Part shown: positions 4,710 through 59,110 of the stretch, one piece after another
How positions within the stretch are numbered: position 1 is the first letter of the stretch
How the letters are laid out: each line of letters starts with the position of its first letter
DNA from: Candidatus Alcyoniella australis
GTDB lineage: Bacteria; Lernaellota; Lernaellaia; JAVCCG01; Alcyoniellaceae
Direction: 5' to 3'
DNA: 64,000 bases
Assembly: GCA_030765605.1 (NCBI GenBank)
Contig: JAVCCG010000093.1
Span: 1 to 64,000 of the forward strand
Translations under genes and position numbers: made by a program
Notes under the pieces: generated by a model
The model's input: the letters and a program-made list of their open reading frames with translations, nothing else
Databases searched by the model: none
Told to the model about the DNA's origin: nothing

Positions 4710-4782
4710 CTCCGCGCCGCGGAGTTGGTCGTCGTTAAATGATGATTGTACTGCGCGAGTTTTGCGGCACCTCAAAAGTGCC
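4710..4782. repeat. Dispersed palindromic repeat, copy A
   Basis: Consists of a GC hairpin (CTCCGCG/CGCGGAG at 4710-4724), a spacer, the core TGCGCGAGTTTTGC and a second hairpin GGCAC-CTCAAAA-GTGCC (4766-4782). The last hairpin base is the first base of the TAG of the minus-strand TPR gene, so the element starts exactly at that gene's 3' end. Related copies lie at 23879, 29571, 40097, 42199, 50441, 57483 and 59064. Confidence 0.7.
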
Positions 4783-5606
4783 TAGCGTTGGGGGTAGGGT
4801 TTGCCTGTGAGGTTGAGCCAGGTGACTCGCGCGTTGCGTTGGGCCATGCGGTTGACCCCGGCCTGGCTGGGCAACGCGTCGGGGTCGTCCTCGATCGCCT
4901 TAGTTAGATAGTTCAGTGCGCGGTCGTGCTGATCGAGTTTGTAGAACACGCGTCCGGCGTAGTTGTAGTTGACCAGGTAGCGCGGTTCGCGCGCGATCTG
5001 CCCGTCGATCTTGGCCGCCACTTCCTCGGGCGGGTAGCCCATGCGATTGGAGAGCCATAGCGGCACGCGCACCAACACCTCGCACCAGAAGCGGTCCTTG
5101 CCGCCGTAGAGGTAGTTCGGCTCCATCTTCTCGACCTGCTCCATGTACTCGCGCATCTTGGGCAGCATCCACATGCTCGAGGACCAGCCGTGCATATCCG
5201 CGGCCGCTGACTCGTTGGTCGCCTTGAAGAAAAAGGCCTGCACGTTTTGCGGATTGACCGCGTATCCGCGCTCGCCCGCTGCGATGCCCTTTTCGAACCA
5301 GCCGATGCGCACTTTCTTTTGCTCGGAGGTTTTGCGCGGCAGGGCGTCGCCGTACTGCCAGTACAGCTCGCACAGCAGCGCCCAGGCCTGGTCGTGGTTT
5401 GGGCAGAGCTTGGTTGCCCGCTCCAGCTGGGGAATCGCGCGTTTCATATCGGCCATGGTGCGGTCGACCAGGTAGGTGCTCATCGCCTGCTCGTAGAGCT
5501 GGTCGGCCTCGGCCCGCGCCTGGTCGGAGCAGGTATCGGCCCAGGCCGCGCTCGCGGTCGTCAGGATTAGAATCGCACACAGCAAAACAGTCAGGCTTCT
5601 ATTCAT
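4782..5606 (-). CDS. Periplasmic TPR protein, TAtT-like (TRAP transporter-associated)
   Basis: 274 residues with a signal peptide (about residues 1-23, ending ASAAWA) and tetratricopeptide-like helices throughout. The segment around residue 160, MEPNYLYGGKDRFW, resembles the LYGG motif of the TAtT family, periplasmic TPR lipoproteins associated with TRAP transporters, but there is no lipobox and no TRAP transporter gene nearby. A final TPR-like pair occupies about residues 215-260 (YAGRVFYKLDQHDRALNYLTKAI). ATG at 5604-5606. A decayed copy of its LYGG segment is found at 4207-4240. Confidence 0.65.
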   Translation of the reverse strand: MNRSLTVLLCAILILTTASAAWADTCSDQARAEADQLYEQAMSTYLVDRTMADMKRAIPQLERATKLCPNHDQAWALLCELYWQYGDALPRKTSEQKKVRIGWFEKGIAAGERGYAVNPQNVQAFFFKATNESAAADMHGWSSSMWMLPKMREYMEQVEKMEPNYLYGGKDRFWCEVLVRVPLWLSNRMGYPPEEVAAKIDGQIAREPRYLVNYNYAGRVFYKLDQHDRALNYLTKAIEDDPDALPSQAGVNRMAQRNARVTWLNLTGKPYPQR

Positions 5607-5632
5607 TGTTCTATTGTGCCCGCGCCAAGGGA

Positions 5633-5662
5633 TAAAAAAAAGGGCGCGCCCTCCGACGCGCC
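5633..5662 (-). terminator. Rho-independent terminator of the TonB-receptor operon
   Basis: On the minus strand GGCGCG-TCGGAGGG-CGCGCC is followed by a run of eight T. It lies 30 bases past the stop of the lipoprotein gene at 5692 and just before the TPR gene, separating the two transcripts. Confidence 0.8.
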
Positions 5663-5691
5663 ATAAGGGGAATACATCAGTAGAAGGGACG

Positions 5692-6567
5692 CTATTTGGC
5701 GTCCTCTTCGTAAACTTCGTATCCGCAGTGCCCCTCGCCCGAGTGGCCCAGGGTGAACAGCGCGGCGATGAACGTGGTGTAGTCGTCGGTGCTCAGCTGC
5801 TCCGACATTTCGGTCTGGTCGATATCGAGCAGACCATCAACTGCCAGGTCGGCGAAGGGTTGGAATCCGGTGGCGCCGGGGTTGACGCTGTCCGGGTCGT
5901 CGATGGACTCGATGTCGCCGAACAAGTGGTCGGAGTGGAAGGTCAGCTCCATGCTGCCCGTGTCGCCGTCAGCGACCACGCCCGCGTACTCGTCGTCGGT
6001 CTCCTGGTGGCAGGCGTTGAACTTCATCTGCTCGTCGAGCTTGATCGTGAAGGCGACCGTTTCCTCGTCCTTGGTCGCCGTGCCGACCATCACGATCGAG
6101 TAGCCGCTGTAATCGCCCGTGTCGGTCTGGATCATATTGAAGTTGAGGTAATTATAGTTGCCGGCCACAGCGTCGGTCACCGTGCCCAGCAGCGCGCGGT
6201 CGTCCCCCTGGTGCAGGTCGACCCAGAATGGTCCGCCCTCGAGATAAGCATGCTCCGCGCCCTCGGGGATGTCGCCGTGATCGTGGCCCGCGTGGCACGG
6301 CGCGTTCTTCTCCTCAGCGACCTGGAAGGCGGTCACTCCGTCGAGGTTGACCCAGAAGTTGCTGAAGGCGATGTCCCAGCCGGTCTTGCCCACGAAGCCG
6401 TTGCGGATGAACTCCTCGCCGTTGGCGTAGAACTCCAACGTGCCAACGCCCACGTCGTCGTCATCGTCGTCGTCGCCGCCGCAGCCGGCCAGCAGCACGG
6501 TGGCGGCCAGGGCCGCTACCAGCGCCAATGCCACCAGGATTGAGATTCTTTTCAGGTCGGTCTTCAT
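5692..6567 (-). CDS. Asp-linker lipoprotein with HmuY/MbnP-like features, possibly metal-binding
   Basis: 291 residues. The signal peptide ends in a good lipobox LLAGC (Cys about 29), followed by GGDDDDDDD. The segment GWDIAFSNFWVNLDG resembles HmuY-type heme-binding proteins. Later segments HAGHDHGD and LTFHSDHLFGD are rich in His and Asp and look like metal ligands. A strong ribosome site AGGAG precedes ATG 6567. The gene follows the TonB receptor after 33 bases, so both belong to one operon. It may capture a metal or metal complex at the cell surface and pass it to the receptor. Exact family uncertain. Confidence 0.65.
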   Translation of the reverse strand: MKTDLKRISILVALALVAALAATVLLAGCGGDDDDDDDVGVGTLEFYANGEEFIRNGFVGKTGWDIAFSNFWVNLDGVTAFQVAEEKNAPCHAGHDHGDIPEGAEHAYLEGGPFWVDLHQGDDRALLGTVTDAVAGNYNYLNFNMIQTDTGDYSGYSIVMVGTATKDEETVAFTIKLDEQMKFNACHQETDDEYAGVVADGDTGSMELTFHSDHLFGDIESIDDPDSVNPGATGFQPFADLAVDGLLDIDQTEMSEQLSTDDYTTFIAALFTLGHSGEGHCGYEVYEEDAK

Positions 6568-6600
6568 CGTGGTTACTCCTTAGTATTCTTTTTCGGTCAT

Positions 6601-9210: not shown

Positions 9211-9316
9211 GATTTCCTTTTTCGTATGCCAGTAATATGTATTAAATTATCGTGCTACGAAAGTCAAACGCCCAAGAGCCGATTTTCCACCTGCGCGATA
9301 TGCTACCTTTATATAG

Positions 9317-10027: not shown

Positions 10028-10098
10028 TCCAAGTGCGGGCTGGCCTAAGTTTTCAAGATAGTTAGAATGATCTGCACACTGAAAGCGGCGGGGCGCGG

Positions 10099-13834: not shown

Positions 13835-13881
13835 GAACACCAACATCGTCGAGAACCCGGTTGAACGAGCAACAATCCGTC

Positions 13882-16413: not shown

Positions 16414-16425
16414 CCCGTGGCTTGA

Positions 16426-23878: not shown

Positions 23879-23977
23879 ATGCGAGTGTTGCTGGCACCTC
23901 CAAGGTGCCGTCGCGGGGAGGGTCGTTGCCATACGATCAGCGGTCTGCGCGAGTTTTGCAGTGCCTCAAAGGCACCC
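23879..23977. repeat. Dispersed palindromic repeat, double copy B
   Basis: Two units in tandem. The first is TGCGAGTGTTGCT with hairpin GGCACCT-CCA-AGGTGCC (23893-23909). The second begins CGCGGGGAGGGTCGTTG, continues to TGCGCGAGTTTTGCA and has hairpin GTGCCT-CAA-AGGCAC (23961-23975). The second hairpin contains the TGA stop of rimO (23966-23968), so the element encodes the last residues of RimO. Confidence 0.75.
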
Positions 23978-25315
23978 GAAGTCGTCGGATCCGCTGAAGC
24001 CCTCAAGCTTTGCTAATACGAGCGTGCCGGGCTCGAGCGCCGCGCCGCGAAGGTAGGTTACGCCGTCGACCTCGGGCGCTTGGGATTGGGAGCGTCCGAT
24101 CAGCGGGTAGTCCTCAAGGCCGCTGGGCCCCTCGATCAGCACCTCGACTTGGCTGCCCACGCGTTCAATCCGTGCGGGCTCGGCCGCCTCTTCGGCCACG
24201 GCCAGTAGTTCGGCCAAGCGCGCTTGGACCAGCTCGTCAGGTACGCGGCCGGGTAGATCAAAGGCCCGGGTGCCGCTCATCGGCGAGTAGCTGAACGCGC
24301 CGAGCAGGTCGAAACGCGCCTGCTGCACGAACGTCAGCAGCTCCTCAAAATGCCGGTCGGTTTCACCGGGGAAGCCGATGATCATCGTGGTGCGCAAGGT
24401 CAGCCCGGGGATTGCGGCGCGCAGCCGCTGGATCAGATCCAACGATTGTTCGGCGTTGATGCGCCGTCCCATGGCCGCGAGGATTTCGTCGGAGCCGTGT
24501 TGCAGCGGCAGGTCGATGTAGGACAGGGCGTGCTCGGCCAGGGCCGGCAGCAGCCGCTGCGCGCGCTCGAGCAACGATGCGGGATGGGCGTACATCAGCC
24601 GCAGCCAGCAGCCGGGCGCGGCGCGGGCCAGGCGCGGCAGCAGGTCGGCCAGGTCCACTCCGGCCTCGAGGTCCATGCCGTAGGCCGCGCTGTCTTGGCC
24701 GATCAGCGTCAGCTCGACCACTCCGGCCTGGGCCAGCGCGTGCGCCTCGTCCTCGATCAGCTCGGCCGGACGCGAGCGGAACGCGCCGCGCAGGTTTGGG
24801 ATCACGCAGTAGGCGCAGCGATTGGAGCAGCCCTCGGACAGCCGCAGGTAGGCCTGGATCGCGTTGTGGTCGATCATTCGCGGCAGCTGCTCGTCGAGGG
24901 AATGTGAGCCCAGCGCTGCAATCAGTCGCGCGGGTCGTGCCTTACCCTCGAGCATTTCGCGGATCAGTTGCGGTGCGCGGGCCACGTCCGAGGTGCCGAT
25001 CAGCAGATCGACCTGCGGCACCTTGCTTTGGATCAACCCGGCGTAGCCCTGGGACAGGCAGCCGGCGGCCACCAGCCGTTGCGGCCCGTGGTCCGTTCCT
25101 TTGAGCCGGGCGTAATGTTCGAGGGTCTGCAGCGCCTCGAGTTGAGCCTCGGCAATGAATCCGCAGGTGTTGACGATCACGATCTGCGCCGGCGGGTCGT
25201 CGGGCTCGGGCTCGCCGTGCCAGACCTCGAATCCCTCGTCGGCAAGCAGTGCGGCGAGCTGTTCGCTGTCCACGCGGTTCTTGGCGCAGCCCAGGGTGAC
25301 GATGCGTATGTTCAT
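23966..25315 (-). CDS. rimO: Ribosomal protein S12 methylthiotransferase RimO
   Basis: 449 residues. N-terminal UPF0004 domain with the cluster cysteines in TLGCAKNRVDSE, VNTCGF and AAGCLSQ. The radical SAM domain has CSNRCAYC near residue 153. The MIIGFPGETDRHFEEL segment and the C-terminal TRAM domain are typical. RimO attaches a methylthio group to an aspartate of ribosomal protein S12; CAKNRVDSE is a RimO rather than MiaB signature. ATG 25315 is chosen because the family begins exactly there and it overlaps the previous stop (ATGA), although the frame is open much further upstream. The last codons come from a dispersed repeat. Confidence 0.92.
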   Translation of the reverse strand: MNIRIVTLGCAKNRVDSEQLAALLADEGFEVWHGEPEPDDPPAQIVIVNTCGFIAEAQLEALQTLEHYARLKGTDHGPQRLVAAGCLSQGYAGLIQSKVPQVDLLIGTSDVARAPQLIREMLEGKARPARLIAALGSHSLDEQLPRMIDHNAIQAYLRLSEGCSNRCAYCVIPNLRGAFRSRPAELIEDEAHALAQAGVVELTLIGQDSAAYGMDLEAGVDLADLLPRLARAAPGCWLRLMYAHPASLLERAQRLLPALAEHALSYIDLPLQHGSDEILAAMGRRINAEQSLDLIQRLRAAIPGLTLRTTMIIGFPGETDRHFEELLTFVQQARFDLLGAFSYSPMSGTRAFDLPGRVPDELVQARLAELLAVAEEAAEPARIERVGSQVEVLIEGPSGLEDYPLIGRSQSQAPEVDGVTYLRGAALEPGTLVLAKLEGFSGSDDFGCL

Positions 25316-29493: not shown

Positions 29494-29570
29494 TCGTCTG
29501 AATCATGTGGGTTAGCCATTGATCCACATACCAATCCCGCGGCGCGGCAAGCGTCGCTGAGTCAAGTGTT

Positions 29571-29608
29571 TGGTTCGCTCGCGGGTTTTGCAGCAGCTCC
29601 GAGCTGCT
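29571..29608. repeat. Dispersed palindromic repeat, copy E
   Basis: Core CGCTCGCGGGTTTTGC followed by a perfect seven-base-pair hairpin AGCAGCT-CCG-AGCTGCT (29592-29608). It touches the TAG (29607-29609) of the minus-strand DUF2804 gene. Confidence 0.65.
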
Positions 29609-30662
29609 ACCAGGTCGAGGCGTGTTTCTCGGTGCAGCCGAACTGGTTTTTGATCTCGCGGCGCACGCCTTGCTCGTCGACGATGAACCCGTTGAACAGG
29701 CCGAAGGGCTGGAAATACTCCGAGATGATCGGTCCGACCCGGATCGACTCGGAGCGCTGCCCTTGGGGTTCGAACTCGAGCTCGCAACGGCCGTCCAAGG
29801 TGGAGAGCTTCCAGCGATCGAGGGTGTCCTTTGGCACCTCAAAGCGCACTTGGGGCAGCAGCGCGATGGTGTTGCCGCTCCACAGGCAGTTCTCGGTGTG
29901 CTCCCGGCCGTCAAAGGCCGTGCCCTGGGTGAACGAGGCGCCGATCAGCCCGCCCTTTTCATCACGGCCGGCGAAGGTCGCCCAGTTCCAGTAGGTGCGG
30001 AACGGGTAGAACGCCTTGTGCACGTCGAACAGCGCCACGTCGCGCCCACGCTCGAAGGTCAGCTTGCGCTCACCCACGGTCAGCTCGCCCTCGATCGGCG
30101 TGGGCACCTTGTGGGTATAGAACGTGCGGCCCGAGGACATCGGCAACAGTGGGATCAGCGGCTGGACCTCGTCCGGATCCTCGTAGGCGATCACTCGGCC
30201 GGCGAACGCGGGCAGCTTTTTTGTGGCGGCGATGTCGATCTCGATCACGTGCCGCCCCTGGGCGAGTTGATTGTGGATGCGCACCCCATAGCCGGGCAGT
30301 ACGAACGAGCAGGTGTCGTTCCACAGTTCGCGCGGCACACGTACGGCGCCGGGCCGGGCGTTGTGCTTGTGCTCGATCAGCTCACCTGATTCGCGGTCGA
30401 ACACGTAGCACCAGCTGACGTTGAGGTACTGGGCGTTGACCATCGAGAGGCTGACCCAGTGCGTGGGGCTGATCAGCGCCACGTGCTGCCATTCCTTGAG
30501 CCGCAGCTTGCGTATCAGCCGCGGTTCGCGGCTGCCGCGGCCATCGAGCGGGGCGTCGAGCAGGTTGAGTTCGGCGAACTCGCCGAGGTAATAGCCGTAG
30601 TTGACCTGGCCCCCTTGCTCCACGGCCCTTTTCGGAGCAGGCTTGAGCTTTGGTTCGATCAT
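29607..30662 (-). CDS. DUF2804 family protein
   Basis: 351 residues from ATG 30662 (MIEPK), preceded by AAGGGG; an upstream in-frame ATG has no ribosome site. WQHVALISPTHWVSLSMVNA, FYPFRTYWNWATFAG, GLIGASFTQGTAFDG and ENCLWSGNTIALLP match the DUF2804 family, proteins of lipocalin-like fold related to CrtC/AttH hydratases. No signal peptide. The gene at 32590 encodes another protein of this broad fold, with a PATAN-TPR gene between them. Function unknown. Confidence 0.75.
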   Translation of the reverse strand: MIEPKLKPAPKRAVEQGGQVNYGYYLGEFAELNLLDAPLDGRGSREPRLIRKLRLKEWQHVALISPTHWVSLSMVNAQYLNVSWCYVFDRESGELIEHKHNARPGAVRVPRELWNDTCSFVLPGYGVRIHNQLAQGRHVIEIDIAATKKLPAFAGRVIAYEDPDEVQPLIPLLPMSSGRTFYTHKVPTPIEGELTVGERKLTFERGRDVALFDVHKAFYPFRTYWNWATFAGRDEKGGLIGASFTQGTAFDGREHTENCLWSGNTIALLPQVRFEVPKDTLDRWKLSTLDGRCELEFEPQGQRSESIRVGPIISEYFQPFGLFNGFIVDEQGVRREIKNQFGCTEKHASTW

Positions 30663-35167: not shown

Positions 35168-35183
35168 CTCGGAGGAGGGTGCG

Positions 35184-40046: not shown

Positions 40047-40096
40047 CCGGCAACCGCCCGGCTCGCGCAGTTCCCTGTTTGTAGTAGAAGCACCCA

Positions 40097-40160
40097 CTCC
40101 GCGTCGCGGAGAGTTCCGTTGAACTACGCGCCTGGTCCGCTCGCGAGTTGTACGGTGCCT
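40097..40160. repeat. Dispersed palindromic repeat, copy G (degenerate)
   Basis: Hairpin CTCCGC-GTC-GCGGAG (40097-40111), then AGAGTTCCGTTGAACTACG, a diverged spacer and CCGCTCGCGAGTTGTACGGTGCC. The right end meets the TAG of the minus-strand PhoU-like gene (40159-40161). The second hairpin is decayed. Confidence 0.5.
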
Positions 40161-40884
40161 ATTCGTCGTCCTCGTTTTCGGGCCCCGAGGCATAGCCGAA
40201 GATCGACTCGAGTTCCTCGGCCTTGGTCGCCTTGAGCGGGTAGAAGCCGATGCGGTCGAACGGATTGAGGGCGATCGAGGCGATGTTCATCAGGTGGGCG
40301 CTGGTGCGCTTGAGGTAGCGCGAGTACAGCACGCACATCACGGCTTCCTTGGCGTTCCCCACGCCGCTCTTGGCATAGTTGCCGACGATCTGGTCGCAGG
40401 CCTGGGAGATCGAGCGGTGCATGACCAGCACGGTCTGGGCGTCATCCCGCAGCTCGTGCTTGATCGCCCTGGTGGTCAGCCCGAACTCGCTGAGCACCTT
40501 CTTGGTCTGCTCGACCAGGTCGGTGGCGCACGGCGCGCCATCGAACGATTCAGGGTAGAGAGAGGCCAGCTCGTAGATGTTTTTGGAGTAATCGCCCAGG
40601 CGTTCGACCGAGACGATCATCGTGGTCAGGGTCAGCGAGGCGACAATGTCCTGCTTGGGGTACAGCGAGAGGTGCTCAAGTACTTTCTTGCGTACCTCCA
40701 TCTCCATCCGGTTGATCTCTTGGTCCTGGCGGTAGATGTCGTACAGCAGCGGCTTGCGGTAGAGCAGCAGGTCGGTGACCGCGATGAACATCTCCTCTGA
40801 GATTTGCAGCATGGAGTTGGCCTGCTTCAGGGCGCTTTGCAATAAATCGCCCGTGCTCAGAGCCCTGAAGAATCTCGTGAACAT
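40159..40884 (-). CDS. PhoU domain protein
   Basis: 241 residues, all alpha-helical. Heptads such as QEINRMEMEVRKKVLEHL and TMIVSVERLGDYSKNIYELA carry the metal-binding ExxxD pattern of PhoU. A single PhoU-like repeat with an extra acidic C-terminus (PENEDDE). The start is ATG 40884 after GGGAGAG. It follows the Na/Pi transporter gene after 30 bases and likely controls that transporter's activity. Confidence 0.85.
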   Translation of the reverse strand: MFTRFFRALSTGDLLQSALKQANSMLQISEEMFIAVTDLLLYRKPLLYDIYRQDQEINRMEMEVRKKVLEHLSLYPKQDIVASLTLTTMIVSVERLGDYSKNIYELASLYPESFDGAPCATDLVEQTKKVLSEFGLTTRAIKHELRDDAQTVLVMHRSISQACDQIVGNYAKSGVGNAKEAVMCVLYSRYLKRTSAHLMNIASIALNPFDRIGFYPLKATKAEELESIFGYASGPENEDDE

Positions 40885-42027: not shown

Positions 42028-42439
42028 AATCCGCTCCGTAGATTTTTAAATCTTTTATGTGGGCGAGGTCGGACGCTCGATAAGCCGAGCAGAAACTAAC
42101 ATATATCAAGCACGGGTTAAATACGAAATTAACCTAACGCTACCACTTACCCTCAGGGGAGGAGTGGATATGGGGAAGACAATATTGCGGTAAACGCTCG
42201 CCGTTGGATTACGACTATGGTTGTTCGCGTGTTTGCAGCGGCTCTAAGCCGCCGCCGCGGGGAGGATCGTTGGATTACGACTATGGTTGTTCGCGAGTTT
42301 TGCAGCGGCTCTAGGCCGCCTCCAAGCCGCCTGGATTATTTAAGAGGGTTCGTCAACGAAGTTTGCCCCTACGCGGAGAGGATTTATCGGTGAACGACTA
42401 TGGGAGTATGCGAGTTTTGCAGCGGCTCCAAGCCGCCGC
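42028..42439. repeat. Intergenic region with three copies (C1-C3) of the dispersed repeat
   Basis: No gene is visible in these 412 bases. C1 (42203-42253) and C2 (42269-42320) are near-identical direct repeats: GTTGGATTACGACTATGG, TTGTTCGCG, GTTT(T)GCAGCGGCTCTA, then GCCGCC. C3 (42390-42438) ends TATGCGAGTTTTGCAGCGG then CTCCAAGCCGCCG, two bases before the TAA of the anti-sigma gene at 42440. The hairpin stems are GCGGCT/AGCCGC types. The left 160 bases (42028-42190) lie upstream of the Na/Pi transporter and presumably hold its promoter. Confidence 0.75.
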
Positions 42440-43939
42440 TTAGTGCAGGACGAACTCGACTACCACGTCGCGGCCGATAGTGACGTCGGTTCCCGGCACC
42501 TGTCTGGGCAGGATCACAACGTGGTACGGCTGGGTTAAAGCCAGGGTCACGGCGCTGTTCGGGTCGGGCAGCGATTGATTGACGTAAACCACCAGCCGGT
42601 CGGTGCTCCAAAGCACGTTTTCGATTCGCACCTTGAATCCGCCGGACGCGCGTTCGCCCAGGAACGCAGCCACGGCGAAGTTGTGCTCGAAGTCCACCGG
42701 CGGCACATCGGGTAGAGGTACGGTGATGCCGAAGATTTTATTCCACAGCGCTGCGAAGCTGCCTGCGTCGTGCAGCACCAGCTGGCTGCGGGTCGTCACG
42801 CCGCTGTAGACCCCCGAGTACTGCTCGATGAACGGCAGTTCGACGCCCGCGAGCGGCTTGTCGACGTCCAGAGCTTCTTCCTCTGATTCACCGCGCTCGG
42901 ACGGGACTGCGCCGAACAGCGGCGGTGAGGGCTGCTGCGCCTCGGGCTTGGGCGCCATCCTTTCGCGCAGCCGTTCGCCGAACAGCCGCGAGGGCCAGAC
43001 CGGCTCGGAGTCGGAGCGGGGCGTGCGCGAGCTGGTGTACTCCACGCCGCCCACCGGAGTCGGTGAGGCCTCCAGCGCGCCCCAGGGCATGGCGGGCTGT
43101 TCGATTGTCGATGTTGCGGCAAGTTCCTTGTCATCGGGCTCGTCGGGCGAGAGGGCCACACTCTTGTGCTCTTGGGCAGGCGGCGCCGGGGCCAGCGCAC
43201 CGCCCGCGGTCCCGGTTACAACGCTGGATTCGCGCGCTTCTACTGGTTGCATCGCGCGTGATTCGTCAACCATGTTGCCTAGGCCCGAGGACTCGATCGA
43301 TCGGGCCCGCTCTTCGGTTCGCGACGGATGCCCGCCCAGGGCCACGGCGTCCAGCCCCGCTGTTGCATCCGATTCTTCGACCTGGGCCAGGCGGTCCACA
43401 GCGTCGTCGAGCATCCCGGCAGACGTCTCGCCTTCGGCTACCAGCGCGACGGTCTCGAGTTCATCGTGCGCAGCCTCGAGCTCGGCAAGTTCGATTGGCG
43501 CGTCGACCGGCGGCACCGCAGGCGCGGGCTGGGACTTGTTGGCGTCGACCATCACCCGGCCGCTTTGTATGTAGTTGTCTTGGAACGAGCCAAAGGGGAA
43601 TTGGACCAGCACCACTCCGAGGAAGACCGCCAGGAACACGTAGGCCAGGGCGCGCGCAGGAACGTAGCGCCCCTCGCCCAGCAGCGCCCGGCTGACCTTG
43701 CGCCACCATGGATCGTGCTCGATGCGCTCCATCACCCTGGCGCGCAACGCGGCCGGGACCGGCTCTTCGCCCAAAGCGCCGAGCAGCTTGACGGTTCGCG
43801 ACATCAGCTCGAGCTCGCGCCGGCAATCGGCGCAGCCCGCGAGATGCTCGTCAAACGCCGCGGATCGTGCGTTGTCCAGCTCGCCCTCGAAATACTCGGA
43901 GAGTTGCGCGAGGACCTGTTCGTGCGTGATTTTACTCAT
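42440..43939 (-). CDS. Anti-sigma factor with C-terminal PrcB-like domain
   Basis: 499 residues. The zinc-finger anti-sigma motif HxxxCxxC (H32, C36, C39 in EHLAGCADCRREL) is followed by one transmembrane helix (about 92-112, LAYVFLAVFLGVVLV). A long disordered, Pro/Glu/Ser-rich linker covers about 120-350. The last 130 residues (FAALWNKIFG, NFAVAAFLGERASGGFKVRI, QPYHVVILPRQVPGTDV) match the PrcB C-terminal domain. The cytoplasmic finger would hold the ECF sigma factor encoded ten bases upstream; the PrcB-like domain outside could sense a protease or misfolded ligand. ATG 43939. Confidence 0.85.
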   Translation of the reverse strand: MSKITHEQVLAQLSEYFEGELDNARSAAFDEHLAGCADCRRELELMSRTVKLLGALGEEPVPAALRARVMERIEHDPWWRKVSRALLGEGRYVPARALAYVFLAVFLGVVLVQFPFGSFQDNYIQSGRVMVDANKSQPAPAVPPVDAPIELAELEAAHDELETVALVAEGETSAGMLDDAVDRLAQVEESDATAGLDAVALGGHPSRTEERARSIESSGLGNMVDESRAMQPVEARESSVVTGTAGGALAPAPPAQEHKSVALSPDEPDDKELAATSTIEQPAMPWGALEASPTPVGGVEYTSSRTPRSDSEPVWPSRLFGERLRERMAPKPEAQQPSPPLFGAVPSERGESEEEALDVDKPLAGVELPFIEQYSGVYSGVTTRSQLVLHDAGSFAALWNKIFGITVPLPDVPPVDFEHNFAVAAFLGERASGGFKVRIENVLWSTDRLVVYVNQSLPDPNSAVTLALTQPYHVVILPRQVPGTDVTIGRDVVVEFVLH

Positions 43940-45072: not shown

Positions 45073-46564
45073 CGTCGCCTGTGTCGTCGTCGCCCGGGCA
45101 ATCATCGTCGTCACCTCCACCCGCGTCATCGTCGTCCGCATCGTCGTCATCGCCCGTGTCGTCGTCGTCATCGTCGGGCAGATATGGATTATACATCCCG
45201 CTGCGGCGATTGTCGGCCTGGGACGTGGCCCAGTGGACCATGCCCGGGCCAAAACTCCAGTCCGCGCAGGTGTAGACGTTGACCGAGCCCTGGCTTTGCT
45301 CAAGATACGATCCGAGCACCACAAGCTCGGGGCTGCCGTCGCGGTCCAGGTCGGCCAGGGTCGGGCCGTTGAGGTAGACGATGCCGTAGGGCCGCAGGGG
45401 GAAGCCGGGCAGGGCCGCGCCCTGGGCGTCCACGCCGAACACAAAGCCGTAGTCGCCGTCGCGCAGATTGTTGGTGAAGATAATCTCCAGCCGCGAGTCG
45501 CCGCTGATGTCTGCCAGCACAATGTTGCCCTCGACCCCGCCGGTGATCAACAGCGGGAAGCCGGGGAATGCCGAACCGTCGTGCTCGATCACGAAAAGGT
45601 TGTCGGCCTCGTACAGTCCTCCCGCGCGGCCCACGACAACCTCCGGATTGCCGTCCTGGTCAATGTCGCCCACTGCCGGCGGACAGTAGCTCCAGGCGTC
45701 GCCCAGATCAAAAGGCCAGCCCTCAAGCTCCGCGCCGTCGATGTCCGTGGCGTGCACGCGGTTGAGATCGCCGTGGGTCACGCTGAGGATCTCCAGCGTG
45801 CCGTCGCCGTCCAGGTCGACCAGCGCCGGGCTGCCGTAGCTGTAGGTCTCATCGGCGATGGTCCGCGGAAAACCGTCCATCAGCGCGCCGTCGCGCTCGA
45901 ACAAGTACAGGCTGCGAAAGGAGCAGATCGCGATTTCGGGTTGGCCGTCGTTGTCCACATCGCCCACTGCCGCGGAGGTGGCGGGCACGTGATCCAGGGC
46001 CACGGGCCAGGGACCGGCCGCCGCGCTCAGGTCGCCGTTATAGGCGTAGAGGTAACCCACGCCGCTGCCGTGTTCACCGACGATGATCTCGAGTTTGCCG
46101 TCACCGTCCAGGTCGGCCAGGGTCGGCTCGTTGTACATTGCGCCCGAGTGCGGCAGGGCCGTGGAGTTCAGCAATGCGCCGCTGCCGGAGAACACGTGCA
46201 GCTTGGGCTGAGGATTGCCCCCGGTGAGGTCGCGGGTGTTGACTACGATCTCCGGGGACGAGTCGCCCAGCACGTCGCCCACGGCCGCGGGGGTCGCGGC
46301 CAGGCCGCTGAGCGCCACGTTGAACAGCTCGGTTCCGTCCGGATCCCAGGCGATCAGCCGCTGACCCATGGTGGCGGCGATCAGCTCGAGTTGCGGATCA
46401 CCGTCGATGTCCGCGACCGTCAGGCCGTGCTGGCCCCAGAACATGCTGTTGAGCGCCACGGTCTGGGGAAAACCGGGCAACTGTTCGATCTGTGCTGCTG
46501 CGGACGCGGTAAAAATAATCGCCAGGGCCAGCGTAACAACCGTCCGTCTGAAGATGCGTCTCAT
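45053..46564 (-). CDS. Secreted FG-GAP/VCBS repeat protein with poly-Asp CCG tail
   Basis: 503 residues with a signal peptide ending ASAAA. About seven FG-GAP/VCBS-type blades with the calcium-binding DxDGDxxxE pattern: VADIDGDPQLELIAA, LADLDGDGKLEIIVGEHGSG, VGDVDNDGQPEIAICS, VDLDGDGTLEILSVT, VGDIDQDGNPEVVVGRAGG, LADLDRDGSPELVVLG. They form an integrin-like beta-propeller. The last 40 residues are almost entirely Asp with Gly and Ala, ending AVCCG. The amidase at 46592 ends with the same kind of tail (NECCG), so the tail may be a sorting signal. ATG 46564 follows GAGG. Confidence 0.85.
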   Translation of the reverse strand: MRRIFRRTVVTLALAIIFTASAAAQIEQLPGFPQTVALNSMFWGQHGLTVADIDGDPQLELIAATMGQRLIAWDPDGTELFNVALSGLAATPAAVGDVLGDSSPEIVVNTRDLTGGNPQPKLHVFSGSGALLNSTALPHSGAMYNEPTLADLDGDGKLEIIVGEHGSGVGYLYAYNGDLSAAAGPWPVALDHVPATSAAVGDVDNDGQPEIAICSFRSLYLFERDGALMDGFPRTIADETYSYGSPALVDLDGDGTLEILSVTHGDLNRVHATDIDGAELEGWPFDLGDAWSYCPPAVGDIDQDGNPEVVVGRAGGLYEADNLFVIEHDGSAFPGFPLLITGGVEGNIVLADISGDSRLEIIFTNNLRDGDYGFVFGVDAQGAALPGFPLRPYGIVYLNGPTLADLDRDGSPELVVLGSYLEQSQGSVNVYTCADWSFGPGMVHWATSQADNRRSGMYNPYLPDDDDDDTGDDDDADDDDAGGGDDDDCPGDDDTGDDAVCCG

Positions 46565-46591
46565 TGATCAATCCTCAATTGTTGCACGGTG

Positions 46592-49279
46592 TCATCCACA
46601 ACATTCGTTGTCGTCATCGTCGTCCTCGCCCGTGTCGTCGTCATCGTCAATCATATCGTCGTCGTCATCGTCGCTCGCATCGTCGTCGTCGTCCAGATCG
46701 GGCACCAGATAATCGACGGCCGCGGCGATCAGCTCGGCGCGCACGTCCGCGGAGAGCACGGTCTCCAAGGGAAAGGCCAGATAGACCACGCGGTACGTGT
46801 CCGCCTCATGGGTAATCGCGGCCGCGTGGTCGCCGTCGCGGTAGAGCAGCGCCACGTCCGACCCTGGCAACGGATCGATGGCGTCGGGCCAGTCGGCGGC
46901 GTAGATTGCGGCCTGGTCGTAGTCGAACTCGAAGGGCCCGATTCCGGCGAAAATCCCAAAGCTCGGATCGATCACGCTGCCGGTTCCCGCGTCGTCGGCC
47001 TGGTAGCTCGCACCCAGGTAATCGGCGTAGAACGTCTGGTCCGCCTGCGAGCCGTTGGCCGCCAAGTCCCAACCGATCTCGCTGCCCGAGATGAACAATG
47101 ATGGTCCATAGCGCGAAAACAACTGTTGCTCGACCAGTGAGAGGGTCTCGTCCTGGGTTGACTCCTCGCCCAAAATCCAGAACAGCGCGTCATAGTGATT
47201 GAGGTCGACCCGACCATCGATCAGGGCGTTGTGGGATGCGCAGTCGAAACCGACCCCGGCCTGGGCCAGGGCCTGGGCGTAGGCGATGGTGTAGTCAAAG
47301 CTGTTCATATGTTCCAGGTACATGCGCTCGATCTCGCCGCCGCCGTAGTAGGGCTCGATCACGTTCTGCCCGCTGTCGAGTCGGTCGAATCCCGAGACCA
47401 GCAGCACTTGTCGATGGTCGTCGCCCGGGTAGACGGCCAGGGTCTCGCTGGGGAAGCTCTCGCCGCCGGCGTTGGTGGCGCTGACCCGCAAGTACAGCGG
47501 ACCGTCGACGGTTGGCTCAATCGACGTGTATTCGTCCGGCACCTGTGCGGCAACGCTGAAGCCGCGGCCGTTTTCGCTGACGTAAACCGTGTAGAACTCG
47601 GCCGGATCGCCGTAGATCCCGCCGTTGTCAGAAGAGGGCTCCTGCCAGTGGATATAAACATCCTGGTTCCCTTCGTAGGTAACGCTCAGGTCCGTGGGCG
47701 GCTGGGGCAGGAAGTGCGGCTCGATCCCGTCGCGCACTGCAAAGTAGCGCACGATCGCCTGATAGATCGAGCGCGCGGCCAGCTCGCGGAACGCCGGTTC
47801 CTTGAGCGCCGCGGCGTCGGCCGGAGTGTCGTGGAACGCCAGCTCGAGCAGTGCGCCGGGCATCTCGTCGTTGTAGTTCGGGTTGATCTCGCCGTACCAA
47901 TTGGTGTGCTCGCCGCGATCGGTCCAGTCCGCATCCCAGCCCGCGCGCAGGTCGGCGATCAGCTCGTCGTGAATCGCCGCGCGTAGCTCCAGCGATCCGG
48001 CTACGCCGTCGAACGGTCCGTCCCAGCCTGCCGAGGAGTAGGCGAAGACGCTGGTGCCGCGCCCCGGGTCCGGGGCGTTGGTGTGAAACGAGACGTAGAT
48101 CGAATCTTCCCAGGCCTCGTTCTCCCACTTGGCATAGCGCGGCATGCTGGTCACGGTGTTCGAGGCGCACTCGGGGCAGCCCATCAGCGGCGCGTAGTAC
48201 AGGCCGGATTCCTCCCAACGCGGCTTCTGCGATTCCGAACCCATGCCGCCGCCAAAGCGCACCGCGTCGGCGATCACGTAGCGGCCGGCATCCGTACCCA
48301 TGTTGCTCACCACCACCGAGCGGCGCTCGGGCGGATCGTCGGCAATGAAGTAGTAACGGCCCAGGTTGTTAAACGTGAACCCGTCGCGCTGCTGGTCGAT
48401 GGTGTGCACGGTCTGGCCGCCGCTGTGGCCCACCACCACCCGCGCGTCCGTGGAGCGGTTGGCGCCGCCGTTGTACCACAGGCCCACGTGGTAATAGCCG
48501 TCCGCGGGCAGCTCGGCCGTAAATTGCGCCAGCGCGGTCTCGACCAGCGACACCGGGGTGTAGCAATAGTCCGCGCCGTAATAGCCCGGGGTGGTTGTGG
48601 AGCATTGCCACGGGCCGCTGAGCGTGCAGGCCTCGTCGTTGTTGTCGATCACCAGTTCCCGGGTCTGCATGTCGCGCTCGCGCGTGGTGTAGACCCCGGC
48701 ACCGGCGTTGTACAGGTAGCGCGCTAGGTATTGGTCCACGGTCTCGGCCGTGAGGAAATCCTCGACCAGGCCGTTGGTGTTGCCGCGCTGGGTAATCCAG
48801 CCGTAGGTCTCGTGCAAGTACCAGCCGTGCCCCGCGCTAAGAAAGATCGAGCGGCCGCTGAGAAAGCCCGCGGGCTGCGGCTGGCCGGGATGGGGCAATG
48901 ACTTGGACCCATGCGCCTCGAACGGCTTTTGCGGCACAGGCTCGCCGGGGTCGATCAACTTGCCCAAGGGCCGAAAGTCCTCGACTCCGGGGCCGCGGCC
49001 GAACACCAGGCAGGCCGTGCCCGCCGGGGTATCGACCATGCTCGTTGCCAGGGCCTGGGCCAGCAGCTCGGCCGCAAGCTGGTCGATGGTCGGCTGCGGC
49101 AGGCTGAGGTAAATGTGATAGTCGCCGTCGAGCTGCTCGACCCGCTCGATGGCCGCACCCGGAGGCAGGCTGTTTTTCAGCGTTGCGAAGCCCGGTTGGC
49201 TGGCCTGCGCCGTCGGGCCGAGGAACAGCACAAGTAGGATCAACCACGTTGCGGACCGCGGGCCGACCATGGGAGACAT
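46592..49279 (-). CDS. Secreted N-acetylmuramoyl-L-alanine amidase with inserted beta domain and poly-Asp CCG tail
   Basis: 895 residues. The signal peptide ends TAQAS. The amidase_3-type catalytic domain is split: RSIFLSAGHGWYLHETYG (about 143, first zinc His), ETVDQYLARYLYNAGAGVYT, then later VSFHTNAP (His) and LLELAFHDTPADA (Glu). Between them lies a golvesin/Xly-like beta domain (YYHVGLWYNGGANRSTDARV; GRYVIADAVRFGG). After the amidase comes an FnIII-like domain (PPTDLSVTYEGNQDVYIHW), and a domain of about 220 residues (QVLLVSGFDRLDSGQNVIEP; EIGWDLAANGSQ). The end is poly-Asp then NECCG. It hydrolyses peptidoglycan cross-links or stems outside the cell. Neighbour of the FG-GAP protein with the same tail. 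Confidence 0.85.
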   Translation of the reverse strand: MSPMVGPRSATWLILLVLFLGPTAQASQPGFATLKNSLPPGAAIERVEQLDGDYHIYLSLPQPTIDQLAAELLAQALATSMVDTPAGTACLVFGRGPGVEDFRPLGKLIDPGEPVPQKPFEAHGSKSLPHPGQPQPAGFLSGRSIFLSAGHGWYLHETYGWITQRGNTNGLVEDFLTAETVDQYLARYLYNAGAGVYTTRERDMQTRELVIDNNDEACTLSGPWQCSTTTPGYYGADYCYTPVSLVETALAQFTAELPADGYYHVGLWYNGGANRSTDARVVVGHSGGQTVHTIDQQRDGFTFNNLGRYYFIADDPPERRSVVVSNMGTDAGRYVIADAVRFGGGMGSESQKPRWEESGLYYAPLMGCPECASNTVTSMPRYAKWENEAWEDSIYVSFHTNAPDPGRGTSVFAYSSAGWDGPFDGVAGSLELRAAIHDELIADLRAGWDADWTDRGEHTNWYGEINPNYNDEMPGALLELAFHDTPADAAALKEPAFRELAARSIYQAIVRYFAVRDGIEPHFLPQPPTDLSVTYEGNQDVYIHWQEPSSDNGGIYGDPAEFYTVYVSENGRGFSVAAQVPDEYTSIEPTVDGPLYLRVSATNAGGESFPSETLAVYPGDDHRQVLLVSGFDRLDSGQNVIEPYYGGGEIERMYLEHMNSFDYTIAYAQALAQAGVGFDCASHNALIDGRVDLNHYDALFWILGEESTQDETLSLVEQQLFSRYGPSLFISGSEIGWDLAANGSQADQTFYADYLGASYQADDAGTGSVIDPSFGIFAGIGPFEFDYDQAAIYAADWPDAIDPLPGSDVALLYRDGDHAAAITHEADTYRVVYLAFPLETVLSADVRAELIAAAVDYLVPDLDDDDDASDDDDDDMIDDDDDTGEDDDDDNECCG

Positions 49280-49326
49280 TGTAGTTTATCGAAAAGGGCG
49301 CGCCGGATTAATTGGCCGGGCCATGT

Positions 49327-50395: not shown

Positions 50396-50400
50396 GGGCT

Positions 50401-50438
50401 GGTGGGTAATTACCCCACCCCCCACGTGGCGGGGTGGG
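50401..50438 (+). terminator. Overlapping alternative hairpins after the UPF0316 gene
   Basis: CCCACCCC-CCAC/GTGG-C-GGGGTGGG (50414-50438) forms a near-perfect long stem. An alternative stem GGTGGG-TAATTA-CCCACC (50401-50419) shares its left arm. There is no strong T run, so termination is uncertain; it could be a bidirectional barrier between convergent genes. Confidence 0.4.
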
Positions 50439-50440
50439 CC

Positions 50441-50494
50441 GTTGGATTACAACCGGCGTTCTGCGCGAGTTTTGTGGCAGCTTAAAGGTGCCGT
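50441..50494. repeat. Dispersed palindromic repeat, copy D
   Basis: GTTGGATTACAACCGGC, then CTGCGCGAGTTTTGT and hairpin GGCA-G-CTTAAAG-G-TGCC (50476-50492) with one G/G mismatch. It ends three bases before the TAG of the minus-strand ParA gene (50497). Confidence 0.65.
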
Positions 50495-50496
50495 TG

Positions 50497-51306
50497 CTAG
50501 GCGGCGCCTCCACCGGCTTTATCGACCTTGATCTGGTCCTGGTACTTCTTGTAGACCTCCGAGGCCAGCTGCAGATAGGCGCGGGAGACCTCGCTCTTGG
50601 GGTCCTGAAGGATCAGCGGCTTGCCGATGGCGAAGATCGTCGAGTACTCCTCCATCCGCGGGATCACGGTCTTGAATACCACCTCCTCGGGGAAAGTGGC
50701 CCAGACCTGCTGCACCACCTCGCGCGCGATGCGGTAGTTCTCGTCGTACATCGTCAGCAGCAGCCCCTCGATCACCAGCTCGGGATTCACGTTGTGGCGG
50801 ATCTTGCGGATGATCTTGAGGATCTGCGTCAGGGTCTTGAGGCTCAGCGGCTCGCACTGCATCGGCACCAGCACCGAGTCCGAGGCTGACAGCGCGTAGA
50901 TCGTCATCTCGCCCATGCCCGGCGGGCAGTCGATGAGGATGAAGTCGCACGAGCGGCGGATGGCCTCGATGTACTTCTTAAGCAGCGGCGCGCTGCCGCG
51001 CTGCTTGACGAACTTCTCGAACTCCTCGGCCATGGTGCCGCGGCCGTAGGGAATCGCCTTGAGCCATTTAAGTCCCGTAGGCTGGATGATCTCGGCCAGC
51101 TTGCGCTTGCCCATGAACACGTCGTAGATCCCGCGCTCCATTTGCGAGCGCGAGAGCCCCAGGCCGAGCCCCACGGCGTTCTGCTCGTCCAGGTCGATCA
51201 CCACGGTGCGGCATTTCATTGAGGCCAACGAGGCGGCCAGGTTGATGGTCGACGTGGTCTTGCCAACGCCTCCCTTCTGGCTGGCGACGGCGATCACTTT
51301 TCCCAT
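50497..51306 (-). CDS. ParA/MinD-type ATPase
   Basis: 269 residues with the deviant Walker A motif QKGGVGKTTS at residues 10-19, Walker A' TVVIDLDEQN and Walker B DFILIDCPPGMG. It resembles chromosome or plasmid partition ParA and Soj proteins. No ParB gene is adjacent, so it may be an orphan used for positioning of other complexes. The C-terminus is disordered (KVDKAGGGAA). Confidence 0.9.
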   Translation of the reverse strand: MGKVIAVASQKGGVGKTTSTINLAASLASMKCRTVVIDLDEQNAVGLGLGLSRSQMERGIYDVFMGKRKLAEIIQPTGLKWLKAIPYGRGTMAEEFEKFVKQRGSAPLLKKYIEAIRRSCDFILIDCPPGMGEMTIYALSASDSVLVPMQCEPLSLKTLTQILKIIRKIRHNVNPELVIEGLLLTMYDENYRIAREVVQQVWATFPEEVVFKTVIPRMEEYSTIFAIGKPLILQDPKSEVSRAYLQLASEVYKKYQDQIKVDKAGGGAA

Positions 51307-51560: not shown

Positions 51561-52781
51561 ATGCTGAAAAACCGTTACTTTGTGAGCCTGTTTACCCTGT
51601 TGCTGGCCTTTTGCCTGTGCTTTGCGGTCCTCTCGTGCGAGGAGGAGGACGACCCGGGGAGCGCCTCCATCGGCGACGACGATGACGATGATTTGGTCGA
51701 CGACGACGATGATGATCTCGACGACGACGACGACGATGATCTCGACGACGACGACGACGACGATGATGATGATGACGACGATTACGCCAACGCGCTGATC
51801 GCCGGGGACAAGAACCTGGTGTTGACCAAGCTCTACTCGGGCAGCGCCGACTCGTGGAGTGGGCTGGAGAGCTTCGCGATGACTCCCACCGACCTGGTGC
51901 GCATGGCCGCGGACGAGATCTACATCAGCGGCATGGTCGCGGCCAGCGATACCCTGGAAGGCTCGATCTACAAGTACGAGGGCACGACCTGGACCGAGCA
52001 GACACTGCCCTCCCAGGCCGAGGACTGGAGCATGCAGGGCATGGCGTTCAGCGGCGCAGGCGCGGGCTGGGCCGTGGGCGCAGCGGCTGACGGCGGGGAT
52101 ACCGACGGCCTGATATTGCAGCTCGACTCGGGCACTTGGACCGACGTTTCGCCCGTTGCGGCGCAGGACGTGACCTTACTCGACGTTGACGCGCTGGCCT
52201 CGGGCGAGGCCTGGGCCGTGGGCCAGAATCTGGTCAGTGGTGCGCCGGTGGTATTGAGCTACGGCCCGACCAAGGGAACCTGGTCCGCCGAAACTTTGCC
52301 GGCGATCGGCTACGACGCCTGGCTGCGCAGCGTGTCCGTGGTTTCGGCCACCGAGATTTACGTAGGCGGCGGCGAGAGCGCGGCCGGCGCCGGGGGCGCC
52401 CCGTTTGTGCTGAGCTACGACGGTTCGACCTGGTCGGCGTTGACAATCCCGGCCAAGATCGCCCACGGCCAGGTCAACTGCGTGGACGCGATCTCCGGGC
52501 TGCTGCTGGTCGCGGGCTTTGACAACGATGCGGAGGACGGCTTCGTCTGGTACAAGGGCGGGGCCGGGCTGACCGATGCTACACCGACTACAACCCTCGA
52601 CGACGAGAACTACCTGGGCTGCTCCCTGGCCGGTTTGACCACGGGCTACGTGGTGGGCGAGGGGCTCGACTCCGCGCTACGCCAGCCGCTGGTCTACGCC
52701 TGGACCGGCAGCGCGTTGACCCTGGTGGGCGGGCCGGACCCGGACAATGTTTCGGGCCTGAGCAACGTCGTCGCCTACTGA
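51561..52781 (+). CDS. Poly-Asp lipoprotein with propeller-like domain
   Basis: 406 residues, ATG after GGAGGAG. The signal peptide ends FAVLSC, followed by a linker of about 50 residues that is nearly all Asp with Leu and Val (codon tandem repeats). The rest (about residues 75-406) is a beta-propeller-like repeat domain: EIYISGMVAASDTLEGS, GWAVGAAADGGDTDGL, EAWAVGQNLVSGAPVVLSYG, EIYVGGGESAAGAGGAPF. Such photosynthesis-system-assembly or BNR-like repeats bind ligands. Surface-anchored; substrate unknown. Confidence 0.75.
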   Translation: MLKNRYFVSLFTLLLAFCLCFAVLSCEEEDDPGSASIGDDDDDDLVDDDDDDLDDDDDDDLDDDDDDDDDDDDDYANALIAGDKNLVLTKLYSGSADSWSGLESFAMTPTDLVRMAADEIYISGMVAASDTLEGSIYKYEGTTWTEQTLPSQAEDWSMQGMAFSGAGAGWAVGAAADGGDTDGLILQLDSGTWTDVSPVAAQDVTLLDVDALASGEAWAVGQNLVSGAPVVLSYGPTKGTWSAETLPAIGYDAWLRSVSVVSATEIYVGGGESAAGAGGAPFVLSYDGSTWSALTIPAKIAHGQVNCVDAISGLLLVAGFDNDAEDGFVWYKGGAGLTDATPTTTLDDENYLGCSLAGLTTGYVVGEGLDSALRQPLVYAWTGSALTLVGGPDPDNVSGLSNVVAY

Positions 52782-52838
52782 CGACCACCCGGCCGTACGC
52801 TGCTGCTGCGGCCACGGTAGATACGACACGGAGTGAAG

Positions 52839-55000: not shown

Positions 55001-55041
55001 TCCGGCCGCAGACAACGACATTATGTTTCAAGGAGGATCCG

Positions 55042-57479: not shown

Positions 57480-57482
57480 ACG

Positions 57483-57553
57483 CGGCAGGGGGCACCTCAA
57501 AGGTGCCGTCGCAGCAAGGCACGCTGTATTTAAGCCGTAGTGATTCGCGGCTA
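57483..57553. repeat. Dispersed palindromic repeat, copy F (partial)
   Basis: Hairpin GGCACCT-CAA-AGGTGCC (57491-57507), then GTCGCAGCAAGGC and a diverged spacer up to the TAG at 57554 of the minus-strand barrel gene. The GCGAGTTTTGC core is not recognisable here. Confidence 0.5.
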
Positions 57554-58213
57554 CTAGAAGTGGATCCCCACGTGGAACAGGGCTGAGATCGGCACGTAAT
57601 CCATGCGGACCTCGATGTTCCCCTCGCCGTACTGCGCCAGGTTGTAGACGTACTCGGCTCGCAGTGTGCCGCCGATGCTCACCCGCTTCTTGACCATGTA
57701 GTCCAGGCCGGCGGCCGCAAAGAACGGCAGGTTGTTGCCCTCGAGGGAGGCGCGGTGGTCCTCGTCGTCGTAGACCATCCGCAGGCTGCTCAGCGCATAG
57801 CCCATGCCGCCGTAGACGTAGGGCCTGATGTCGCGGTTGAGGAACTGCCAGCCGAAGAAGAACTCGATGCTGGTGTTCTGCACCGAGATCTCTTTGTCGC
57901 GGAGCGTGTCCTTGATGTCGTATTCCAGGTCCACCGTGCCGCGGGCCGAGCGGTAGTGACCGGCCAAGCCGAAGAACGCATTTTTGCCCGAGGTGATCCG
58001 GATCGAGGCGCCGCCGCGAACATTGTATAGGCTGCCGTTGGAGAACTCGGCGTCGTCCAGCGTCTCGTTGTTGTCGATGCGCCCCGAGGCGATGAAACCG
58101 TAGCCGCCGCCGACCTGCAGGTGCACCGCGTTGAGGTACTTGGATTTCGCCGTGGCGGGCGAGGCGCAAACCATCAGTAAAACAGCGACCAATACGGGCA
58201 AGTATCTTCTCAT
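57554..58213 (-). CDS. Outer-membrane beta-barrel protein (OmpA/OprF-like fold)
   Basis: 219 residues from ATG 58213, five bases after GGGGGG. The signal peptide ends PATAK. The mature part has eight-strand-type beta segments: LQVGGGYGFIASGR, GASIRITSGKNAFFGLAGHY, SIEFFFGWQFLNRDIRPYVY, FFAAAGLDYMVKKRVSIGGT, ending ISALFHVGIHF with terminal Phe. A small porin-like or adhesin-like barrel. Function unknown. Confidence 0.75.
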   Translation of the reverse strand: MRRYLPVLVAVLLMVCASPATAKSKYLNAVHLQVGGGYGFIASGRIDNNETLDDAEFSNGSLYNVRGGASIRITSGKNAFFGLAGHYRSARGTVDLEYDIKDTLRDKEISVQNTSIEFFFGWQFLNRDIRPYVYGGMGYALSSLRMVYDDEDHRASLEGNNLPFFAAAGLDYMVKKRVSIGGTLRAEYVYNLAQYGEGNIEVRMDYVPISALFHVGIHF

Positions 58214-58291
58214 CGATCCCCCCTGACCGCTCAAACTAGCGGCGCTCCCGCACCCTGTCAAGATACTGGCCGGATATGCAAATATAGAGCG

Positions 58292-59017
58292 ATGAAGAGC
58301 GTGGTTCTGACACTGATCGCATTGCTGGTCTGCGCCGCAGCTCCGGCCGGAGTTCCCGACCTGACGCCCGAGGCTGTGTTGCAAGGGAGGCTGGCCGGGG
58401 ACGCGGTGCTGACCAACGTTCAGATCGAGCTGTGGAGCTTGGCGCTGGCCGGCTGCGGCTGCGAGTCGACCGGCGCAAACGAGCTGCTGTTCGGCCGCGA
58501 GATGCCGCTGGCCGCTGCGCGTTGCAACGCGCCCGCCGCGCCGCCGGCGCAGCCCGACCGAACCCTGGCCCTGGCATTGCCAGAGCGCGAGGATGACGCG
58601 GCCGATCTGATCCGCAAGCTTTGGGTGCGCACGCTGTTTCGGATGCAACTGCTGCGCGCGGTGGCCGTCCACCGCCAGACCGACGGACTGATGCTCGACG
58701 ACGCGCTACTCCAGGTGCGCGCGGCCAACCGCGCCGACCTGGCCTGTGCCGACAGCCTGGACACGGCCAATCGCTTTCGCACCGGACATACGATTCGCGC
58801 CTTTGCCGTAGTGCGCTCGGGCCTGGATCGACCGGCGCAGCTCGATCCGCTGGACAGCACAACGCAGCAGGTCTCGTTGCGCGGCGACGAGCGATTGGAG
58901 TTGATCAGGCTGCGCGGGCTGTACGTCGAGGTCCGCCTCGAGGGCCGCCGCTACGCGGCCGACCCGCGGCTGTTCGTCGGGGTTGTGACTGAAATAGAGG
59001 GCAACTTAGAAAGGTGA
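58292..59017 (+). CDS. Exported protein of unknown function
   Basis: 241 residues from ATG 58292. The signal peptide ends PAGVP. The mature protein has Cys pairs (LAGCGCEST), a helical middle (ADLIRKLWVRTLFRMQLLRA) and a mixed C-terminus. Not recognised. It is divergent from the barrel gene at 57554. Periplasmic location is predicted. Confidence 0.6.
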   Translation: MKSVVLTLIALLVCAAAPAGVPDLTPEAVLQGRLAGDAVLTNVQIELWSLALAGCGCESTGANELLFGREMPLAAARCNAPAAPPAQPDRTLALALPEREDDAADLIRKLWVRTLFRMQLLRAVAVHRQTDGLMLDDALLQVRAANRADLACADSLDTANRFRTGHTIRAFAVVRSGLDRPAQLDPLDSTTQQVSLRGDERLELIRLRGLYVEVRLEGRRYAADPRLFVGVVTEIEGNLER

Positions 59018-59063
59018 TAAAACATGCTAACGCACCAAGCACGTGGTGCAATGATACATGCTG

Positions 59064-59110
59064 CGACGCGGAGAGGATCGTTGATAAACGAAAAGGGGAA
59101 TACGCGGTTG
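59064..59110. repeat. Dispersed palindromic repeat, copy H (left part only)
   Basis: CGACGCGGAGAGGATCGTTG followed by ATAAACGA matches the left half of the repeat (compare CGCGGGGAGGATCGTTGGAT in copy C2). The core and second hairpin are missing where the minus-strand PilZ gene ends at 59111. Confidence 0.45.

Follow-up and report, generated by a model that had tools for sequence, protein, structure and literature searches.

Repetitive extragenic palindromic (REP) sequences and bacterial interspersed mosaic elements (BIMEs) are short palindromes that lie outside genes in high copy, singly, in pairs or in arrays; they often touch or supply stop codons, form stem sub-families with alternative paired residues, and occur in genomes with a gene for a REP-associated tyrosine transposase (RAYT) (PMC3733652, PMC2817692). 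Published REPs favour gaps of the convergent and unidirectional kinds and frequently donate TAG stops (PMC3733652), and in REPINs (REP doublets forming hairpins) two inverted units behave as a single mobile piece, ~100-125 bp long (PMC3116915). The traits given for REPs and BIMEs, and the inverted pair of REPINs, have counterparts in a repeat that we describe here from Candidatus Alcyoniella australis, where it was noticed in a stretch of 64,000 nt (contig JAVCCG010000093.1, positions 1 to 64,000; hereafter the window). An original prediction, made from the window, had placed a motif with a hairpin at eight loci and called it REP/BIME-like. This likeness has held up well, as the repeat proved to be extragenic, palindromic and present in high copy, in inverted pairs and arrays and at gene 3' ends. 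We consider it likely that it represents a lineage-specific family of non-coding palindromic elements of REP/BIME/REPIN-like kind.

Anatomy, copy number and lineage range

Taken in the direction of the gene leading into it, one unit comprises, in order, hairpin, tail (GCAAAACTCGCG), ~37-nt core and a final CCGCG; hairpin, tail and core together span ~70 nt. The hairpin (GGCACCTTTGAGGTGCC type) has seven pairs, a TNG loop and an energy of -10.5 to -12 kcal/mol, and 190 hairpins with this loop frame were counted against 1-9 for control loops. Forty-two pairs of units face each other head to head across CCGCGTCGCGG, all with the same geometry, giving a palindromic element of ~125 bp with a hairpin at each end; the hairpin ends are outermost on both sides in 45 of the 48 loci that hold units in two orientations. 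Arrays are built from hairpin-tail or hairpin-tail-core modules, with ~13 or 50 nt separating successive hairpins. Near-identical copies at different loci (some cores 0-2% different) match from hairpin to hairpin, after which the flanks mostly diverge, and some of these copies share further repeated modules beyond the terminal hairpin. As the identity is bounded by the terminal hairpins, the pair of ~125 bp is the natural copying unit and, judging from the sequences, looks like the mobile unit.

Something akin to miniature inverted-repeat transposable elements (MITEs), which in bacteria are likewise short, non-coding inverted-repeat elements beside genes, would also be consistent with arms that are inverted, with defined ends and with the recent, near-identical copies. 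We regard a MITE-like element as distinctly unlikely, given that each end is a whole hairpin and not a simple inverted repeat, and that in 22 of 24 pairs the stem class of one terminal hairpin is not that of the other. The modular tandem arrays of F type, spaced at 13 and 50 nt, and the exchangeable terminal hairpins are also unlike MITEs, and no partner transposase was identified (DDE families were not searched). A second alternative makes the tail itself the functional unit, as a DNA-uptake-type signal of the sort often paired at gene ends in Neisseria and Haemophilus, and it is true that the tail is a conserved 12-mer with ~200 places in the genome, at gene ends. However, ~200 places are few next to known uptake signals, every exact copy of the 12-mer in the window belongs to a unit, and the sequence sits clear of the stems, embedded in a longer conserved core, which makes this explanation very improbable.

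Two further pairings within the unit were rejected. A CGCG/CGCG closing helix proposed by RNAalifold showed no two-sided change, its G:U excess falling mostly in one column (31/39), and a core hairpin, GGTCGT/ACGACC, was not accepted as conserved, with pairing in just 75% of cells.

The repeat is not the only one of its surroundings. A second dispersed intergenic family was represented by 19 segments in 15 intergenic stretches, with sequence such as TGAATTATTCATGAAGCTTCTGCTGCG (seen in L154, L156, L181, L183, L185 and L188), and a possible fragment of this type lies at 42323-42362 of the window, between the units E2 and E3 described below. Further repeated modules, for example AAAGATCGTTAAAACGATCTTTGTGTGTAGGCTCGCC and GCGTTCTCAAAGAAG...TGTTCATCGA, adjoin terminal hairpins (L135 3559-3628, L164 3088-3157, L165 37-106, and the flanks of L157 and L160). 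Because these extra modules abut the terminal hairpins, the intergenic regions are mosaics of several modules joined at hairpins.

Copy number was established with a covariance model, R1, built from 39 copies and searched against the whole genome (4.29 Mb in 157 contigs). The search returned at least 150 matches (E = 1.5e-25 to 6e-12), so that the family extends well beyond the copies first seen in the window. R1 was built in part from window copies, and the genome-wide controls therefore weigh more: the tail, as CGCGAGTTTTGC with at most one mismatch, was found at 206 places genome-wide compared with 38 for the reversed control, and a combined tail and hairpin pattern in 54 rows compared with none. 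Within the window, CGCGGAGAGGATCGTTG (at most three mismatches) occurs at 6 places where 0.6 would be expected by chance, and 4 of these lie within the repeat. The fetched stretches around copies, together with the window (624 kb), contained 221 units in 122 loci. Both R1 and the stretches chosen by hits lean towards well-preserved copies, and the copy number is a lower bound.

Within the genomes sampled, the family is confined to this lineage. An R1 search of six other genomes of the same class gave no convincing units and a single weak match (E = 2e-4), and a scan of 60 related genomes gave isolated matches only. Scanning 84,980 species for the tail and hairpin pattern yielded 38 single matches in unrelated genomes, which we took as chance; viral contigs gave 2 single matches and plasmids none. 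In Rfam no family exceeded its gathering score for the repeat, the window matching only RNase P and two tRNAs.

Placement at gene ends

Placement was assessed in an unbiased sample of 313 kb (the window and, for every eighth contig, as much as the first 20 kb), with gene ends taken from the codon-based gene caller of this analysis and not from curated annotation. Among gaps of at least 60 nt, 14/20 convergent, 1/63 tandem and 0/34 divergent ones were occupied (convergent against the rest, Fisher p = 1e-12), and convergent gaps without an element had a median length of 10 nt. The hit-chosen set of 122 loci divides into 52 convergent, 37 tandem and 8 divergent loci plus 25 at stretch ends, and none of the 122 lies inside a gene. 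In the window itself, a copy or remnant is present in each of the seven convergent gaps of at least 60 nt and in none of the four shorter gaps. The repeat had been predicted to sit at the 3' ends of minus-strand genes; this is correct as far as it goes, but seven of the eight window loci (all except E) lie between convergent genes, and the repeat therefore adjoins plus-strand 3' ends as well.

Of the 65 units no more than 10 nt from the 3' end of a gene, 59 are hairpin-first and 6 core-first, whereas no unit comes that close to a gene start. Convergent loci with a single orientation have the hairpin end nearer the stop in 29 of 30 cases (p = 6e-8). The stem usually begins 0-5 nt past the stop codon, and in a minority of copies, the one at rimO among them, the stop codon falls inside the hairpin loop. 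The fixed orientation of the original prediction is borne out at most gene ends, but at loci A, D and H there is an inverted half unit on the other strand as well, and the orientation follows largely from the paired anatomy: since both ends are hairpins and the tail-to-tail spacers are short, most hairpin-first placement is explained without selection for orientation. Stops beside a hairpin were TAG in 34/64 cases compared with 130/415 elsewhere (Fisher p 0.001), an excess that arises in part because the first stem G completes TAG. A target preference for TAG was considered and rejected, as copies away from stops lack TAG at this position.

Published accounts give REPs a part in termination and in the stability of mRNA (PMC3733652, PMC12306157), and work cited in PMC12306157 reports that E. 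coli REPs no more than 15 nt from the stop stall ribosomes and lower translation. The E. coli elements resemble the repeat in placing a hairpin right after the stop codon and differ from it in sequence and architecture. By analogy, an effect on mRNA 3' ends like that of E. coli REPs may exist here as well: a hairpin right after the stop would be the first structure of the 3' untranslated region (UTR) and would probably shield mRNA 3' ends or curb read-through. The repeat is not a classical terminator, in agreement with the original prediction, since in the gene sense no U tract directly follows the hairpin and the tail comes next. By a simple scan, U-tract intrinsic terminators are rare at gene ends in general (12/475) and stand at 3/133 gene ends adjoining elements, and the genome encodes Rho.

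These observations could be read as the signature of a selected 3'-UTR RNA element, in which the RNA fold itself does the work, as terminator or stabiliser, and is preserved by compensatory mutation. Exact abutment on stop codons, hairpin-first orientation and the scarcity of intrinsic terminators in a genome with Rho are what such an element would predict. The orientation, however, also follows from any element with hairpins at both ends, and many hairpins lie inside arrays, away from stop codons; taking these points together with the stem data presented below, we judge this explanation unlikely. A combined scheme would have mobile transcript-end modules transposed into tail-to-tail gaps, one hairpin for each convergent gene, right behind its stop codon, replacing intrinsic terminators, with stems exchanged as blocks by single-strand recombination. 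We offer this as a tentative and rather unlikely suggestion.

Hairpins of single-stranded DNA with variable stems in a constant frame, at gene 3' ends, are also reminiscent of the attC-like recombination sites of a chromosomal integron. That origin is barely credible here: no integron integrase exceeded the curated cut-off in the genome (TIGR02249), the copies are scattered among ordinary genes such as rimO, and they occur in both orientations and as tandem copies without genes between them.

Stem classes and possible mobilisation

Stem pairing is kept despite sequence change, as had been proposed from the window copies, and the paired stem changes exceeded all 500 shuffles and all slid controls. 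This covariation favours the 3'-UTR RNA element, but the manner of change does not. Four discrete stem classes exist (GCACC 66, GCGGC 62, CCGGC 43, GCAGC 23), with a constant loop frame, and the class changes between copies whose cores are just 2-4% apart. Among copies with cores at most 12% different, 23 of 74 nearest neighbours carry another stem class, and loci L165 and L168 have their left part in common and differ from the right-hand hairpin onward. G:U and A:C mismatches are equally common (14:16 and 24:26), a comparison that with 30-50 mismatches excludes only a strong bias. These equal numbers suit a palindrome at the DNA level and, combined with four classes that switch as wholes, they mean that RNA-level selection of the fold receives no support from the stem changes. 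The pattern fits a swap of whole hairpins as DNA. The covariation behind the predicted selected shape is therefore real, while the inference of selection drawn from it is weakened.

If the repeat is a REP/BIME/REPIN-like family, the pair would move as one unit via single-stranded DNA, and its terminal hairpins would be recognised in trans by a Y1/HUH enzyme of RAYT type. Copies would last only where no gene or promoter is broken, which would leave them in tail-to-tail gaps, and the tandem arrays and hairpin swaps would result from recombination or template switching between hairpins. The genome contains one Y1 transposase gene, and it is a RAYT gene (L031:1351-1923, minus strand; NF047646, 146 bits against a cut-off of 80). 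A TnpA-REP-type transposase had been suggested as the mover; such a gene is indeed present, and RAYT is a plausible mobiliser of the repeat, but neither the repeat nor an inverted repeat occurs in the RAYT flanks. Six class relatives also encode RAYT-family members, several flanked by inverted hairpins of unrelated sequence, and REP-RAYT systems seem to operate in the class. The flanked genes are in relatives G001, G003, G004 and G005 (L211, L212, L213, L214, L217 and L219); in G005 the RAYT family is matched 16 times.

Several points weigh against a REP-type family. The 3.4-kb RAYT locus is without a repeat unit, the best match of 5.5 bits being too low for a decayed unit beside the gene to be accepted, and the search of its flanks for an inverted repeat scored the same as shuffles. 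Transposition is deduced from near-identical copies. Sequence tags differ too. In the GTAG super-family of REPs, GTAG (or GYRG) stands at the hairpin foot in >90% of members in most families, and in the CGTC super-family CGTC lies beside a stem of 8-9 bp that begins with AT pairs. No conserved GTAG tag was found here: the tail is followed by GTAG in 40 of 150 units and by GCAG in 30 of 150, at several bases from any stem, and the outer hairpin is untagged in copies that do not adjoin a stop. The stems start with G/C pairs, and CGTC is seen only within the central CCGCGTCGCGG of some copies.

The architecture also departs from described systems. Unlike REPs and BIMEs, the repeat has a unit of hairpin, tail and core with exchangeable stems and an unflanked RAYT gene, and its hairpins stand outermost on both sides of a locus and do not alternate through it. 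Unlike REPINs, its arms usually end in hairpins of different stems and without a tag, and its RAYT link is putative. The repeat works like REP/BIME or REPIN in the broad sense, outside the tagged super-families.

Window loci and significance

The repeat or a remnant of it was found at all eight window loci named in the original prediction; the hairpin predicted for every copy is present at most of them. Locus A combines a decayed inverted half unit (4647..4733, minus strand, R1 44.8 bits) with a full unit (4701..4786, plus strand, E = 3e-22), made up of core, tail CGCGAGTTTTGC at 4754-4765 and a hairpin at 4766-4782 that touches the stop of the minus-strand gene at 4782-5606. Locus B holds two plus-strand units: the partial unit B1 (23880..23909), with a tail of two mismatches and the hairpin GGCACCTCCAAGGTGCC, and the full unit B2 (23895..23980, E = 5e-25). 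As predicted, B2 supplies the stop of rimO (RimO by TIGR01125), a TGA that is the complement of 23966-23968 and lies in the hairpin loop. The locus C unit (29526..29612, plus strand, E = 6e-17) has a tRNA-Ser on one side and a DUF2804 gene ending at 29607 on the other.

At locus D, a plus-strand unit (40088..40174, E = 4e-15) includes the TAG stop of a PhoU-domain gene at 40159 and retains only one arm of its stem (GGTGCC), and so has no hairpin; a decayed inverted half unit overlaps it (40058..40120, minus strand, 24.2 bits, E = 3e-6). Locus E has three plus-strand units, E1 (42193..42255, from alignment A1), E2 (42252..42324, E = 2e-19) and E3 (42355..42441, E = 2e-16), and the E3 hairpin adjoins the stop of the minus-strand gene at 42440-43939. 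The locus F unit (50411..50496, plus strand, E = 4e-20) takes up most of a 101-nt convergent gap before a ParA-like gene at 50497-51306. Loci G and H had been called decayed copies, which they are, in opposite ways: G is a lone hairpin, GGCACCTCAAAGGTGCC, in a convergent gap (57491..57507, plus strand), and its R1 match at 57493-57569 reaches an E of only 0.012 because the hairpin is kept and the core unrecognisable, whereas H has a core that has lost its hairpin (59050..59115, plus strand, E = 8e-10), with an inverted remnant at 58996..59082 (minus strand, E = 2e-4).

Other features of the window were recorded in passing. Two segments of an AMP-binding enzyme gene (1811-3616), at 3140-3199 and 3214-3260, recur with 88-89% identity at 4240-4299 and 4287-4333, within a second copy (3674-4333) that carries an in-frame TAG (CCGTAGAAC) and looks like a decayed duplicate. 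On one strand or the other, long runs of GAC/GAT lie in open frames that would code for Asp-rich tracts (34264-35356, 45053-46715 and 51647-51808), and a class A RNase P RNA lies at 60195-60561 on the minus strand (304 bits).

The stems of this repeat carry a caution of wider use, in that their paired changes look like swaps of whole hairpins, and covariation alone should not be taken for selection on an RNA fold. The family adds to the REP/BIME-like elements one of different architecture, with untagged, exchangeable terminal hairpins and a palindromic pair as its unit, from a lineage with few sequenced relatives. If the proposed role at 3' ends is true, a mobile repeat would serve convergent genes as a common end structure, in a genome where U-tract terminators are few.

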